A program made the position numbers and the translations under genes. From Planctomycetota bacterium (GTDB lineage: Bacteria; Planctomycetota; JAJSAM01; JAJVHW01): 64,000 bases of DNA. Shown in pieces: positions 18,300 to 24,690 of the stretch. The stretch is from positions 1-64,000 of the forward strand of contig JAJFFG010000005.1 of NCBI GenBank assembly GCA_021776825.1, given 5' to 3'. The notes under the pieces were generated by a model. The model made no database searches. It saw only the letters and a list, made by a program, of their open reading frames with translations, and was not told the origin of the DNA. The stretch's first letter is position 1. Each line of letters begins with the position of its first letter.

Positions 18300-20666
18300 A
18301 TGCGCACTTCCCGCCTCGCCGCGAGCCTCGCGAGCGCCGCGGCCTTCGGGGTCGTGGCGTGCTTCGTGTGGACTGCGTCGACGCCGGGCGCCCCCGAGCC
18401 TGGCCCGAGCCTGGCGGAGATGGTGGCCCGAGGCCGGATTGCCCGACCGGCTGATCCCGTCCTCTCGGCCGAGCCCGCAGCGGCCGCCTCCGTCGCGGCC
18501 CCTGTACGAGTTGTTCCGGGTCGCTCGCTCGTCCTCACTCATCTGCCCGCCCGTGACGGGGCACCGGCCCAGATTGCACGCGATCTGCTGGCAGAGCACG
18601 GCGCCGCGCTCGGCGTGACCTCCGCACCGGGCTCGCTCACGCTGCACCGTGAGATCACGTCTCTCTCGGGCGTCCACGTGCGCTTCCGCCAGACGGTTGA
18701 CGGCGTCCCCGTCGTCGGGAGCGAGGTCAGCGCCCACGTGGCTCCGGACGGTCGTCCGCTGCTCCTGCGTGCGGACCTCTACCCGCTCCACGGCATCGCG
18801 GGGGAGCAGTTGGCGACGCTGCCTTGGATCGACGAGGCCGAGGCGCGCGGGGCGGCGGCGTCCTTCGTGACCGACGAGGAGTCCGATGCTCCCGCGCCGG
18901 ACATTCGGACCCCTCGGCTCGCCATCCTCCCCGAAGGACGCGATGGCCGACTCGTCTGGATCGTCGACACCGTGACGCCCGCCGAGTCCCTGCGCCTCTA
19001 CGTGGACGCCGTCGAGGGCGGGGTGGTCCGCTCCGAGAACAAGCGCGTGGCCGCCGACGGCGTCGCGCTGATCTTCGACCCCAACCCCGTGCACAGCGAG
19101 GGCGACTCGACCCTGCGTGATCAGAGCGACCGCGACTACGGCGCCGTCACGAACGCGCGCCAGCTCGTGACGCTGCGACGGCTCGACGGCACCGGCTTCC
19201 TGCGTGGCGATTGGGTCGATCTCCGCCGCTCGCCGGTCTCGACGTTCTCGTCCGAGCTCGATTGGTCGTTCGCCACGCGCAGCCACCACGCCTTCGAGCA
19301 GGTGATGTCCTACTACCACTGCGATCGCGTCCAGGAGCGGCTGCGCGGCCTCGGGATCCTGAACGTGAACGCGGAACGCCAGGACGTCAACGCCCACGCA
19401 TCGTCGGCGGACAACTCGTCCTACGACACCATCGACGACGTTCTGAAGTTCGGTGACGGCGGCGTCGACGACGCCGAAGACGCGGACATCATCGTGCACG
19501 AGTACGGGCACGCCATGCAGCACGACCAGGTCGACGACTACGGTCGGACGGGCGAGGGCGGCGCGATGGGCGAGGGGTTCTCGGACTTCCTGGCCGTGCT
19601 CATGCACGAGTCGGGACGACCGTTCTGGGACCCACTCTTCGGATCGTGGGATGCGGTGGGGCTCCCCGGCGCGAAGGACCCGCCGGCACTCCGGCGCGTG
19701 GACCGCGACAAGGTCTACCCGCGTGACTTCGTCGGCCAGGTGCACGGGGATGGCGAGATCTGGTCGCGCTTCCTCTGGGACGTGCGGCAGGCCATCGGCG
19801 CCGACGCCGCGCTGCAGCTCGTCGTCGAGCACCACTTCTTCCTCGGGCCGAACTCACGCTTCCGCGACGCCGTGGACTCCTTGCTCGCGACGAACGTGGC
19901 GCTGCGGGACGGACGCCACGACGCCTCGCTGCGCGCAGCCGCGAGTAACCGCGGCCTGCCGTTCAGCGTGCCGCCGGCACCGTTGCCGCCGGAAGACGCG
20001 TTCGACGACAACGACGTGCTCGGCGACGCGGCGGATCTCGGCGTGGGCGACCATCCGAACCTGCTGCTGGCCGACGACGACTGGTACCGCTTGGTCGTTC
20101 CGCCGTTCCGGCGAGTGCTGCTGCGCGCGCTGTTCGATCCGGTCTCACTCGATCTCGACCTGCGGGCGCACACGCCGGACGGCCGTCCTGCCGGGCGTTC
20201 TGATGGGGTGTCGGGAGTCGAGGAACTCGAGATCGCCGCCGGCGCAGCGGGCGTCGTCGTCCACGTGCGGTGCTTCCGCGCCGACGGACAGACCGATCCG
20301 GCCGCCTACGATCTGACGCTGGTGGAGACCGACCTGCCCGCGTTCGGACCGGAGCAGACCGTCGTGCGCACGCTCGAGGTTGGCGAGGGCTTCGCGTTCC
20401 GCGTCCCGGTGGAGCCGCAGAAGGTCGACGATGGCTCGCAGATGAAGCTGAAGAGCCGCCGGCTGAGCCGGGGTGCGAAGAACGACCTGCGCGTCTATCG
20501 GCCGAACGGCACCGAGGTGCTTGGCATTCTCGAGACGCGCAAGCGGCGTGGCGCCAAGGCGATCGTGACTCCGGACGAGCCTGGCGACTGGATCGTCGAG
20601 CTCGTGCCGCGCGACGACACCTCCGGCCGCTACAAGCTGAAGGTGAAGTTCAAGACGCCGCGCTAA
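18300..20666 (+). CDS. M36/fungalysin-like secreted metallopeptidase with FTP-like propeptide
   Basis: Signal peptide; propeptide VHVRFRQTVDGVPVVGSEVSAHV; ADIIVHEYGHAMQH; GEGFSDFLAV. Confidence 0.82.
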   Translation: MRTSRLAASLASAAAFGVVACFVWTASTPGAPEPGPSLAEMVARGRIARPADPVLSAEPAAAASVAAPVRVVPGRSLVLTHLPARDGAPAQIARDLLAEHGAALGVTSAPGSLTLHREITSLSGVHVRFRQTVDGVPVVGSEVSAHVAPDGRPLLLRADLYPLHGIAGEQLATLPWIDEAEARGAAASFVTDEESDAPAPDIRTPRLAILPEGRDGRLVWIVDTVTPAESLRLYVDAVEGGVVRSENKRVAADGVALIFDPNPVHSEGDSTLRDQSDRDYGAVTNARQLVTLRRLDGTGFLRGDWVDLRRSPVSTFSSELDWSFATRSHHAFEQVMSYYHCDRVQERLRGLGILNVNAERQDVNAHASSADNSSYDTIDDVLKFGDGGVDDAEDADIIVHEYGHAMQHDQVDDYGRTGEGGAMGEGFSDFLAVLMHESGRPFWDPLFGSWDAVGLPGAKDPPALRRVDRDKVYPRDFVGQVHGDGEIWSRFLWDVRQAIGADAALQLVVEHHFFLGPNSRFRDAVDSLLATNVALRDGRHDASLRAAASNRGLPFSVPPAPLPPEDAFDDNDVLGDAADLGVGDHPNLLLADDDWYRLVVPPFRRVLLRALFDPVSLDLDLRAHTPDGRPAGRSDGVSGVEELEIAAGAAGVVVHVRCFRADGQTDPAAYDLTLVETDLPAFGPEQTVVRTLEVGEGFAFRVPVEPQKVDDGSQMKLKSRRLSRGAKNDLRVYRPNGTEVLGILETRKRRGAKAIVTPDEPGDWIVELVPRDDTSGRYKLKVKFKTPR

Positions 20667-20681
20667 CCCGCGCTAACCGGG

Positions 20682-21212
20682 CTAACCAGAGCTAACTCGG
20701 GCGTCGAAGCCGTCGCCATCGACTGCGATGCCCTCGATCGCGAGCAGCGCACGCTTCCACGGATGGCCTCCGCCGAAGCCTCCAAGGCGGCCACCGGCCG
20801 CCACCACGCGGTGTCACGGGACGACGATGGAGACGGGGTTCGCCCCTACGGCGCCGCCGACGGCGCGCGCGCCGCCGGGGCTCCCGGCCGCGCGGGCAAG
20901 TTCGCCGTACGTCACGAGCCCGCCGAACGGGACATCGCACAACGCGGTGAGCACGCGCCGCGCGAAGGGCGTGGCAAGACGGAGGTCCACCGGGACGTCG
21001 AACGAACGCACGGAGCCGTCGAGGTACCCGCGCAGCGTCTGCGCGATGGCGTGGTGGTCGTTGCGCTTCACGGAGACGCTCTCCGAGAACCGGGCGACAT
21101 CGCGCGTGTAGCCGACGTCTCCGAACGAGAGAACGGCGAGCCCGGTCTCCGTCACGGCGCCGAGAAGAGGACCGACCGGGCCGTCCACGCGGAATGTCGT
21201 CAGCGCGATCAC
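20682..21212 (-). CDS. ogt: Methylated-DNA-[protein] alkyltransferase (OGT/MGMT) with in-frame TGA at the catalytic Cys (candidate selenoprotein)
   Basis: MIALTTFRVDGP...FARRVLTALCDVPFGGLVTYGELARAAGSPGGARAVGGAVGANPVSIVVP-(TGA)-HRVVAAGGRLGGFGGGHPWKRALLAIEGIAVDGDGFDARVSSG*; frame intact on both sides of TGA 20814-20816. Confidence 0.8.
20786..20802 (-). promoter_or_regulatory. Candidate bacterial SECIS hairpin
   Basis: GGCGGCC-GGU-GGCCGCC, perfect 7-bp stem; apical loop begins 18 nt after the TGA. Confidence 0.55.
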
Positions 21213-22447
21213 CGCTCGATCCTCCGGTGCCGGTACGGCTGCTCGAGGATCAGGACTCCGAGCGCCGTGGCGAACACGCGGCCGCCCGTCTGCCGCTCGT
21301 AGGTGCCCTTCGGATCCCACGACCCCGTCGCGCACCCCCGCTTCTCCTGGTGACCGACGAGCGCGCTCTTCGCCTTGCCGTACCAGCCGCTCCAGGACGT
21401 GCCGCCGGCCTGGAACGTGGCGACCGTGCCGTACCACCACTGGTACATCGACAGGTTGCCGATCTGAACGGGCACCTTGCCGCGCCCCGGCACGTTGACG
21501 TCCCGGAACGAGATCTTCCACGAAGGCTTCTGCTTCGCAATCAGGCTCATGTTCGCCCGATGGGCAGGCGTGGAGAGGCCGACACCGAGCAGGTGCCGGA
21601 TCGCGGCACCGCAGTGTGCGTTCGACGAGGTGGGGGTGTAGCCGTACCGCCGCCCCTCCTTCATGTACGCGAGGCGGCCCTTCTTCACCTCGAGCGTCGC
21701 CAGGAACTTCTCGACTCCCGGGGCCAGGTCAGCGGGGAGTTCGACGCCGGCGTCGCGGGCCGTGACGAGGGCCTGGACGGCGAGCGCGGTGAACGGAATG
21801 TCCGATCCCGGTCGGTACGGCGCGGCGTAGCCCCACGCTCCGTCCGCCTGCCGACGCCCGAGCAGAGCCCTGGCGCCACTCTCCGCATCGTCCTGCCAGC
21901 GGCCCTTCCGTTCCAGAGCCTCAGCCTCGGCGAAGCACTGCGTCGCGAGGGCGAGGCCCCACGTGCCGCCCGCACCACGCAGCCGCTCGAGCGCCGCTTC
22001 GACAAGCGCACCGTGTGGGTCGTCGTCCGCGCCGGGCAGGTGTCCGCGTCCCAGGAACGCCAGCGTCGCGACGGCGGTGATCGCGTCGTCGAATGGGCAG
22101 GGCATGTCCTCGCCGTGCTGGCCCTTGCCGATGCCCGTGCAGGCCGTGCCCTCGGCGCACTGGTCCGCGAAACCGTCGGCGTCCCAGCCGCCGTCCTCGC
22201 CGACGTGGCGCGCCAGCCAGTCGAGACCGGCCGTGACCGCCCGCTCGGTCGCGGCGTTCCCTCCGCCCTTTTGCAGCGCCTTCGTCCGAGCTTCGTCGAG
22301 GCGGGGGCCGACCAAGCGCGGCGCCGGAAGTGTCGGCACCTCAGGCGGGGCCGGACCGTCGGTGGTTTCGTCTTCTGCGGAGAGTGGAGGCAGCGACGAC
22401 CACGCGAGCGCGAGAAGGGCGGCAGCGATCACCGTGTGACGGAGCAC
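21209..22447 (-). CDS. Prenyltransferase/squalene-cyclase-like (alpha-alpha toroid) secreted protein
   Basis: GLDWLARHVGEDGGWDADGF, TCATGSWDPKG-like repeat, GGRVFATALGVLILEQPYR. Confidence 0.72.
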   Translation of the reverse strand: MLRHTVIAAALLALAWSSLPPLSAEDETTDGPAPPEVPTLPAPRLVGPRLDEARTKALQKGGGNAATERAVTAGLDWLARHVGEDGGWDADGFADQCAEGTACTGIGKGQHGEDMPCPFDDAITAVATLAFLGRGHLPGADDDPHGALVEAALERLRGAGGTWGLALATQCFAEAEALERKGRWQDDAESGARALLGRRQADGAWGYAAPYRPGSDIPFTALAVQALVTARDAGVELPADLAPGVEKFLATLEVKKGRLAYMKEGRRYGYTPTSSNAHCGAAIRHLLGVGLSTPAHRANMSLIAKQKPSWKISFRDVNVPGRGKVPVQIGNLSMYQWWYGTVATFQAGGTSWSGWYGKAKSALVGHQEKRGCATGSWDPKGTYERQTGGRVFATALGVLILEQPYRHRRIER

Positions 22448-22473: not shown

Positions 22474-24642
22474 CTACGGGCGCGTGTAGAGGTGACACGT
22501 GCTCTGGAAGGGGAGGTACTGCTCCCACTTCGTCGCGACGTAGTCGGCGCTCCGCTGGAAGTCGCGCCGGAACGCGTCGGTGCGGCGGCCGTCGATCTTG
22601 TGGCTCTGCTCGGAGCGCTCGATCAGCGTGCCGTCGGGCCGCACCAGTTTGTGGATCACGGGCGCGTCGATCACGTACGAGCGTCGGCCGGCGGCCCGCG
22701 CAGTCATGCAGAGGTCGGCGCCGTAGCAGTGGAACCCCGGGAGCTCCGCGTCGAAGTCGACGTCGTGGGAGGCGCGGACGCCGAGCCACAGCTCGTCGAG
22801 CACCTGAACCTCCAGGGGCAACCCGGCCCGCGGCGGCTTGTGGTACTTGTGCGGATCGCTCCAGTGCCCGACGTTCGGCGGCTCGCTGTCGCCCTCCGGG
22901 AGCGCTCGCCCGGCCGCACCGATGACCCCCCAGTCCGGATCGCGCTCCTCGAGGTCGCGGAGTGCGCGGAAGAGTCGGTCCTCCCAGTCCGGCGGGAACA
23001 GCACGTCCTGGTGGACGTAGAAGCGGAGGTCGTGCTGCGCTCGACGGGCGGCATCCCAGTACAGCCGTGAGATCGAGTCGCACGCACGGTTCGCGCGGTT
23101 CTCCACGAACAGCCACTGGTGGCCGCCGTGCTCGTAGCAGTCCGAGGCCAACACGTGGCGCCGCAGCTCCACGGGATCGTCGACGGCGACGATGAACGTG
23201 ATGGGCTCTCGCTCGGCGATCTCCTCGAAGCGGCGGTGCCGCTCGACCGGGGGCAGTCGGCGCCGCGAGCGGATGGAGCGGGCGCGACGCTCGTACCCCT
23301 CGGCCGCCCGGAGCAGGCGCGCCTCGTCGGAATCCGAGCGGAGTCCGCGCCACGCTGCACGCACGGCGCCCTCGTCGCGCTCCGGCCGGCGCACCGGTCC
23401 GTGGGCTCCTCGCGCGAGATTCACCCGCTCGAATGGATCGAGCTCCAGGTCGTACTCTTCGGACCAGGTCTGGCGTCCCAACCGCAGGTCGATGCGCTTC
23501 CGCGGCCAGTTCACGGTGGCGCGGCTCTTGAGTTCGTGCGTCTTGTACTCATAGCGCCGGAGGCGCTCCGCGACGTCGTTCGTGGGCAGGTAGAGGTAGC
23601 CGAGGTCCTCGGCGATGAGCTCGCGCTGTGCAGGCAGGCGCCGCAGGTCGTGCCCCGTCAACTCGCCGGGATCGACGCCGGCGAGCCCCAGCAGGGTCGG
23701 GACGACGTCCAGGACACTGCACGGAGTGTCGACCACCGTGCCGGGTGCGGGTGCGTCAGGTGTGTCGGGCGGCAGGACGACGACGAGCGGAACGTGCAGC
23801 AGATCCTGGTGCAGGCGACCGCAGTGGTGCACGCGCGCAGCGGGGCCATCGAAGCCCTCGCCGTGATCGCTGACCACGATGACCGCTGTCGTCGAGAGAT
23901 CCACGTTGGCCAGAACGGCGCGCAGCCGACGATCGGTCTCGGCGATGCAGCCGTCGTACTTCGCCTCGAGGGCCGCCGCGAGGGCGTCGTCGTCGAGGTC
24001 CCCCGGAGGCTCGCGCCAGATCCACGGGCCGTCGCGAAAGCGATGCACGGACGGCGGTAGGGGCGCCCCGAGGAAGCGCTCCACGTCCAGACACCAGGGC
24101 TGATCCTCGTCGTAGTCGTGGACGAGGTTCGTGTGGAGCATGGCGAACCACGGCCGATCGTCGCTCGGGCGCTCCGCGACCCAGTCCTCGAACGCGGCGA
24201 ACGGCCCGTCCTTGTCCTGCTTGTGGAACCACCGATACGTCTCGAAACCCTCCTGCCACCCGAAGTGCTTCCAGACCTCTGGCCGGCGTTCGAAGCCGAG
24301 GGCGTCGAGCGTCTCCGCCGAGAGATCGTCCGGGACGAGGTTGCCGTTGTTCGCGATGCCGACGGTGGCCCAGTCCGGGCTGAGTAGCGCCGAGATCTTC
24401 GGCACGCGGAAGCGATGGTCGTGATGGATGAGGCCGTGGCTGCTGGGGAGGTGCCCGGTCACGATCGACGCGCACGCCGGGAGCGTCCATCCGCAGGTGG
24501 TGAGGCACCGCGTGTACCGGACGCCGCGAGCGGCCAACTCGTCGAGGAATGGCGTCTCGGCGCCGGCGTGTCCGTTCGCGCCCACGCGATCGAAACGCAG
24601 GTCGTCGACGATGACGAGCAGTAGGTTGGGTGGGCGGGCCAT
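22474..24642 (-). CDS. Sulfatase-like (alkaline-phosphatase superfamily) domain fused to a StrF-like glycosyltransferase domain
   Basis: N-term PPNLLLVIVDDLRFDRVG...VIVVSDHGEGFDG; C-term ITFIVAVDDPVELRRHVLAS...HDLRFYVHQDVLFPPDWEDRLFRAL...ADLCMTARAAGRRSYVID. Confidence 0.78.
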   Translation of the reverse strand: MARPPNLLLVIVDDLRFDRVGANGHAGAETPFLDELAARGVRYTRCLTTCGWTLPACASIVTGHLPSSHGLIHHDHRFRVPKISALLSPDWATVGIANNGNLVPDDLSAETLDALGFERRPEVWKHFGWQEGFETYRWFHKQDKDGPFAAFEDWVAERPSDDRPWFAMLHTNLVHDYDEDQPWCLDVERFLGAPLPPSVHRFRDGPWIWREPPGDLDDDALAAALEAKYDGCIAETDRRLRAVLANVDLSTTAVIVVSDHGEGFDGPAARVHHCGRLHQDLLHVPLVVVLPPDTPDAPAPGTVVDTPCSVLDVVPTLLGLAGVDPGELTGHDLRRLPAQRELIAEDLGYLYLPTNDVAERLRRYEYKTHELKSRATVNWPRKRIDLRLGRQTWSEEYDLELDPFERVNLARGAHGPVRRPERDEGAVRAAWRGLRSDSDEARLLRAAEGYERRARSIRSRRRLPPVERHRRFEEIAEREPITFIVAVDDPVELRRHVLASDCYEHGGHQWLFVENRANRACDSISRLYWDAARRAQHDLRFYVHQDVLFPPDWEDRLFRALRDLEERDPDWGVIGAAGRALPEGDSEPPNVGHWSDPHKYHKPPRAGLPLEVQVLDELWLGVRASHDVDFDAELPGFHCYGADLCMTARAAGRRSYVIDAPVIHKLVRPDGTLIERSEQSHKIDGRRTDAFRRDFQRSADYVATKWEQYLPFQSTCHLYTRP

Positions 24643-24690
24643 CGCCCTCACCTCACCGCGCCGGCGCGCGGAACGCCAGCCGAGAATCAG

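Follow-up and report, generated by a model that had tools for sequence, protein, structure and literature searches.

The stretch of DNA analysed here (64,000 nucleotides, hereafter the window) carries an ogt gene in which a TGA stands at the codon of the catalytic cysteine, raising the question of whether this codon is read as selenocysteine (Sec) or marks a gene that has been broken. We regard it as highly probable that the gene encodes an O6-alkylguanine-DNA alkyltransferase with a predicted selenocysteine acceptor, and the evidence was all read from sequence, namely the frame, the position of the TGA, the genes of the decoding machinery, the match to a model of the SECIS element, selection and orthology.

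The ogt Reading Frame and Its Product

The features of the gene are as follows.

20682..21212, minus strand: ogt, from GTG to TAG, with a UGA in frame; 176 residues including the predicted Sec133; PF01035, TIGR00589
20814..20816, minus strand: in-frame TGA, a candidate Sec codon, in place of the PCHRV catalytic Cys; 12 further genes have TGA at this codon too
20838..20840, minus strand: Asn codon 8 residues before the Sec, equivalent of Asn137 of human AGT (hAGT)

Read on the minus strand, the frame of 176 codons opens with a GTG at 21212 and closes with a TAG at 20682, and its sole internal stop is the TGA at 20816-20814 (codon 133). The translation runs VIALTTFRVDG...GANPVSIVVP-U-HRVVAAGGRLGGFGGGHPWKRALLAIEG...VSSG-TAG, the same frame carrying on past the TGA as HRVVAAGGRLGGFGGG...KRALLAIEG, and apart from the TGA it is free of any lesion. 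The product matches PF01035 from end to end (1-81 of 81, E = 4.5e-30, 103.8 bits with a cut-off of 27), indicating a complete domain, as well as TIGR00589 "ogt" (E = 2.9e-27, 94.5 bits, cut-off 46.4). Its acceptor motif reads NPVSIVVP-U-HRV...ALLAIEG with U replacing C, accompanied by the Asn 8 residues before the acceptor, a His adjoining it, and a Glu near the C-terminus. Judged by the complete domain and the acceptor motif, the product is a member of the O6-alkylguanine-DNA alkyltransferase family, and the earlier description of an intact OGT/MGMT frame, whose lone internal stop falls on the catalytic Cys, is thereby confirmed.

Among solved structures, the product is matched by PDB 4bhb and 4wx9 (E = 2.5e-28) and by human MGMT, PDB 1eh6 (E = 1.8e-18). 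The nearest solved relative is the Ogt of Mycobacterium tuberculosis, the enzyme of 4bhb and 4wx9. By sequence these proteins have the same fold, but their acceptor is Cys where that of the window gene is predicted to be Sec.

Recurrence of TGA and Switching Between Sec and Cys

A sample of 392 phylum genomes, searched with the pattern NP-x-P-TGA-HRV, yielded 11 matches, every one of them an OGT, and the reversed pattern gave 0 matches over the same 392 genomes. Two extra genes obtained from homology bring the total to 13 TGA-OGTs in four families: f1 (the genome of the window and G052), f77 (G161, G279, and G304), f60 (G253, G188, and G100), and f57 (G316, G275, G374, G308, and G284). The eleven outside f1, in three families, are loci L177, L178, L159, L179-L185, and L164. 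The acceptor column across homologues holds TGA in 13 genes and Cys in 119. Since TGA recurs at one codon in 13 OGT genes and the reversed control is empty, its position is not a matter of chance. A number of other flags of an internal TGA (G135, G339, G147, G162, G164, L041, L043, and L047) were dropped, the stops lying after the gene or elsewhere and not at the Cys. Beyond the phylum set, the best 80 loci of a scan of GTDB contigs contained no TGA form, one of the six patterns being Cys-based and the result having no bearing on rarity outside the phylum, and IMG/VR held no exact match to the TGA-OGT pattern.

The Asn 8 residues before the acceptor is kept in 13 of 13 TGA-OGTs; because the search pattern that found 11 of them demanded Asn or Asp at this position, such retention hints only weakly at a site that Sec has not relaxed.

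The gene neighbourhood provides a positional anchor for comparison within f1.

21209..22447, minus strand: 412-aa protein without Pfam match, 5′ of ogt; adjoins the OGT in G052 and G027 too
18300..20666, plus strand: M36-type metallopeptidase, convergent neighbour; marks positional orthology of the OGT in G052 and G027

The stop of the 412-aa gene and the GTG start of ogt overlap by 4 nt (GTGA, 21212-21209), so that the two genes are probably translationally coupled. Further upstream (22474-24651) lies a gene for a 725-aa protein in which a glycosyltransferase-like stretch (PF13712) comes after a sulfatase domain; this gene adjoins the OGT in G052 and G027 and is also found near the OGT locus of G139. 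On the other side, short and degenerate copies of GCTAACC..GC are repeated in direct orientation at 20658-20702 (spacings of 19 and 10), across the stop codon of ogt and the end of its convergent neighbour.

Family f1 comprises five genomes, in which the acceptor codon is TGA in the genome of the window and in G052, TGT in G027, and TGC in G139 and G090. The OGT genes of G052 and G027 have the same sulfatase, 412-aa and M36 peptidase neighbours as the window gene, so positional orthologues carry TGA in one species and TGT in the other, which is the Sec/Cys alternation that the first-pass annotation had named as support for Sec. The OGT proteins of the window and G052 are 51% identical. The simplest reading of these sequences is that Sec was present in the ancestor of the three genomes and that TGA later changed to TGT in G027. 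Of the two Cys codons, TGT is the less common in that setting (2 of 20 in neighbouring genes), a rarity that fits such a change, short of proof. When the acceptor column is masked, the resulting tree requires 7 changes of the Sec label, and well-supported branches force at least three of them. The genome of the window also has a second OGT with a Cys acceptor (L021, G000:C42:53675-53911), and in the tree it branches well away from the Sec form. In G052 (91% complete), no OGT other than the Sec gene was found, and this gene may hence encode the sole alkyltransferase of that species.

Selection Downstream of the TGA

NG86 distances were calculated over the 29 codons downstream of the TGA. Between the window gene and that of G052, dN is 0.149 and dS 1.28; the other pairs gave dN 0.059 and dS 0.314 (G253-G188, few changes), dN 0.094 and dS 0.995 (G316-G284), and dN 0.183 and dS 0.988 (G374-G308), dS being only approximate where it is large. 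In the first three pairs dN/dS past the TGA is about 0.1-0.2. The downstream frame is under purifying selection as protein, which answers, for this side of the codon, the comparison of substitution rates that had been proposed at the outset. A pseudogene was rejected on the same ratio past the stop, together with the lack of any further lesion.

Selenocysteine Decoding Machinery

The genome of the window (6.88 Mb, 93.6% complete) contains a tRNA-Sec scoring 68 bits, over the Rfam cut-off, which ARAGORN calls tRNA-SeC(tca), with anticodon UCA; SelB, over its cut-off; SelA, at 493 bits; and a selD whose own GGG-U-ACK site contains a TGA in frame (L018:1531-1533, G000:C111). This selD would itself be a selenoprotein gene. 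All four genes for which a search had been suggested (selA, selB, selD, and that of tRNA-Sec) are thus present, and on its gene content the organism is able to decode Sec. The survey of the machinery covered this genome, its order for tRNA-Sec and SelB, and two further genomes of the phylum for tRNA-Sec. Each of the 8 other order members and of the 2 further phylum genomes has a tRNA-Sec candidate over the cut-off; those of G124 (48 bits) and G041 (52 bits) are weak. Of the 8 genomes of the order, only G139 (76% complete) lacks a SelB match over the cut-off, the remaining 7 having one.

The Hairpin Downstream of the UGA

Immediately 3′ of the UGA lies a candidate for a bacterial SECIS element (bSECIS).

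20786..20802, minus strand: candidate bSECIS hairpin GGCGGCC-GGU-GGCCGCC, 7 bp, 3-nt loop, -13.7 kcal/mol
20793..20795, minus strand: apical loop GGU, codon +7 after the predicted Sec, 18 nt after the UGA

The published bSECIS model has a loop of 3-9 nt with a G in the first two positions, a stem of 4-16 bp, a distance of 16-37 nt from the UGA, and an energy of at most -7.5 kcal/mol (PMC13188914), and the window gene lies within all of these ranges. The offset of its GGU loop is that of the GGU in Escherichia coli fdhF, and across four neighbouring genes GGT accounts for 11% of the Gly codons. The 7-bp stem and the 18-nt distance of the loop, both pointed out in the first-pass annotation, stand, but as an argument for Sec the hairpin of this GC-rich gene is by itself weak evidence, because GC-rich synonymous shuffles often fold equally well. 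The fold of 39-56 nt is unremarkable (z = -0.59), and whole-fold energy, or a hairpin anywhere, is equalled by 36-44% of synonymous shuffles; 4.6% of them form a stem of equal length at the canonical register, and 8.5% attain the strict SECIS score. Whole-fold energy (56 nt) and shuffles with free position do not single out the hairpin, whereas the register and model tests across genes do.

The bSECIS model is passed by 12 of 13 TGA genes vs. 21 of 119 Cys homologues (Fisher p = 1e-7), and by 8 of 41 Cys homologues within the phylum (p = 4e-6 against the TGA genes), both p-values being too small because the TGA genes are partly related. In the strict G[G/U] form, 11 TGA genes were observed vs. 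3.2 expected from synonymous shuffles, and 7 Cys genes of the phylum vs. 5.8 expected. The pattern by which the genes were found stops before the stem, so the choice of genes is not the cause of this enrichment. The TGA gene of G275 fails the model outright, and that of G100 passes solely on a hairpin located well away from those of the others; our implementation needs an unbroken stem, by which even the bulged hairpin of E. coli fdhF fails, and G275 may fail for that reason. In 4 of the 5 f57 genes, a GGUC-type loop lies 21 nt after the UGA and not 18. A search of Rfam returned no match to a SECIS model.

Proposed Mechanism and Alternative Explanations

The Sec-dependent alkyltransferase first proposed for this locus is thus supported by the machinery, by the alternation of Sec and Cys, by downstream selection, and by the enrichment of matches to the SECIS model; the insertion of Sec itself and the alkyltransferase activity are inferred. 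SelA would charge the UCA-anticodon tRNA-Sec, drawing on selenophosphate from SelD, a predicted selenoprotein, and SelB, bound to the GGU-loop hairpin past the UGA, would deliver Sec at codon 133, after which translation would run in frame to the TAG. The alkyltransferase would flip the O6-alkylguanine, with Sec133 as the acceptor by homology, and the selenolate would take over the alkyl group in a single turnover, as Cys does in Ogt/MGMT. Sec may be favoured since a selenolate needs less help with deprotonation, and its chemistry suggests that Sec, as a stronger nucleophile, would benefit the cell.

The plainest alternative is a TGC-to-TGA nonsense mutation, or a sequencing error, in an ordinary Cys OGT, leaving a truncated product and a decaying gene. 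Although this would take a single base, TGA occupies this codon in 13 genes from four families and is common to the window genome and G052 despite the 51% identity of the proteins. The loss of the gene could be covered by the second, Cys-type OGT of the genome, yet the frame downstream remains under purifying selection, and while the hairpin of the window gene alone is unexceptional, SECIS-like hairpins are enriched over both Cys homologues and synonymous shuffles; moreover, the f1 genomes decode Sec. Decay or error is effectively excluded by these sequences, and we grant it a very small chance, in agreement with the initial assessment, which the recurrent TGA codon and the downstream selection now reinforce.

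A full-length protein without Sec could also arise if the UGA were read as Trp or Cys by near-cognate suppression, or if TGA had been reassigned, as occurs in some bacterial phyla; beyond this general precedent, nothing specific speaks for it. The upstream 412-aa gene ends with TGA, as does one other of the four neighbours checked, and TGA is therefore still a stop codon in this genome. The UCA tRNA folds as tRNA-Sec, no other TGA is found anywhere in ogt, and a Trp at the acceptor position would be unable to accept an alkyl group by the established mechanism, which makes this explanation hardly credible. It is likewise conceivable that under selenium shortage the cell makes the truncated protein of 132 residues on purpose, alongside the Sec form, as a decoy with a regulatory or DNA-binding role. 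UGA/Sec codons do terminate when Sec-tRNA is scarce, and the truncation would fall just before the acceptor and after the DNA-binding helices; against this, the C-terminal 30 residues are part of the fold, and nothing points to a stable fragment or to its conservation in its own right, leaving this idea with next to no probability.

Relation to Known Systems and Implications

The earlier remark that Sec-containing MGMT homologues had already been predicted proved correct. Sec-containing PF01035 ("Methylated-DNA-protein-cysteine methyltransferase") is listed as a predicted selenoprotein family (PMC2398784, PMC9312934, PMC13188914), the Global Ocean Sampling table giving 1 Sec sequence vs. 2,879 Cys homologues (PMC2398784) and reviews giving ABB14497.1 as an example (PMC9312934, PMC13188914). 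That family is bacterial and belongs to the same Pfam family, a likeness that follows the family listing, given without motif; the present gene comes from a different genome, is joined by 12 related TGA genes within a single phylum, and belongs to a set in which close relatives clearly switch between Sec and Cys. In algae, a methylated-DNA-[protein]-cysteine methyltransferase (MDP) has been predicted as a selenoprotein of the same enzyme family (PMC7539508); it uses eukaryotic Sec decoding, whereas the window gene has a candidate bacterial in-frame SECIS adjoining the UGA. An engineered Sec145 human AGT, which guards E. coli lacking ada and ogt from MNNG, likewise has Sec at the acceptor, but made by UAG recoding; Asn137, which helps to form the Cys thiolate in the human enzyme, becomes dispensable in the Sec145 form (PMC4150793), whereas the 13 natural TGA-OGTs all keep the Asn. 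Novelty is therefore limited, the Sec-OGT family as such being already known as a predicted selenoprotein. What appears to be new is its breadth within the phylum and the repeated switching between Sec and Cys; no report of such breadth of TGA-OGTs in the phylum was found in the literature, in a search that was thin on subscription journals. Automatic annotation probably cuts these genes at the UGA, so that they are called truncated or pseudo OGT.

A further reading, tempting though rather unlikely, is that within the phylum Sec was repeatedly acquired, and also lost, at the acceptor of this non-redox, single-use repair protein because the selenolate gives a property that Cys lacks, such as faster repair, a wider range of alkyl groups, or a reversible alkyl-selenoether allowing turnover. 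To our knowledge, nearly all known selenoproteins are redox enzymes with many turnovers, and a single-reaction alkyltransferase is an odd place to spend selenium. For this reason a recurrent natural Sec-OGT would be a clean case for roles of selenium beyond redox, and the neighbouring species whose positional orthologues carry UGA in one and UGU in the other would offer a natural pair for testing what selenium contributes.
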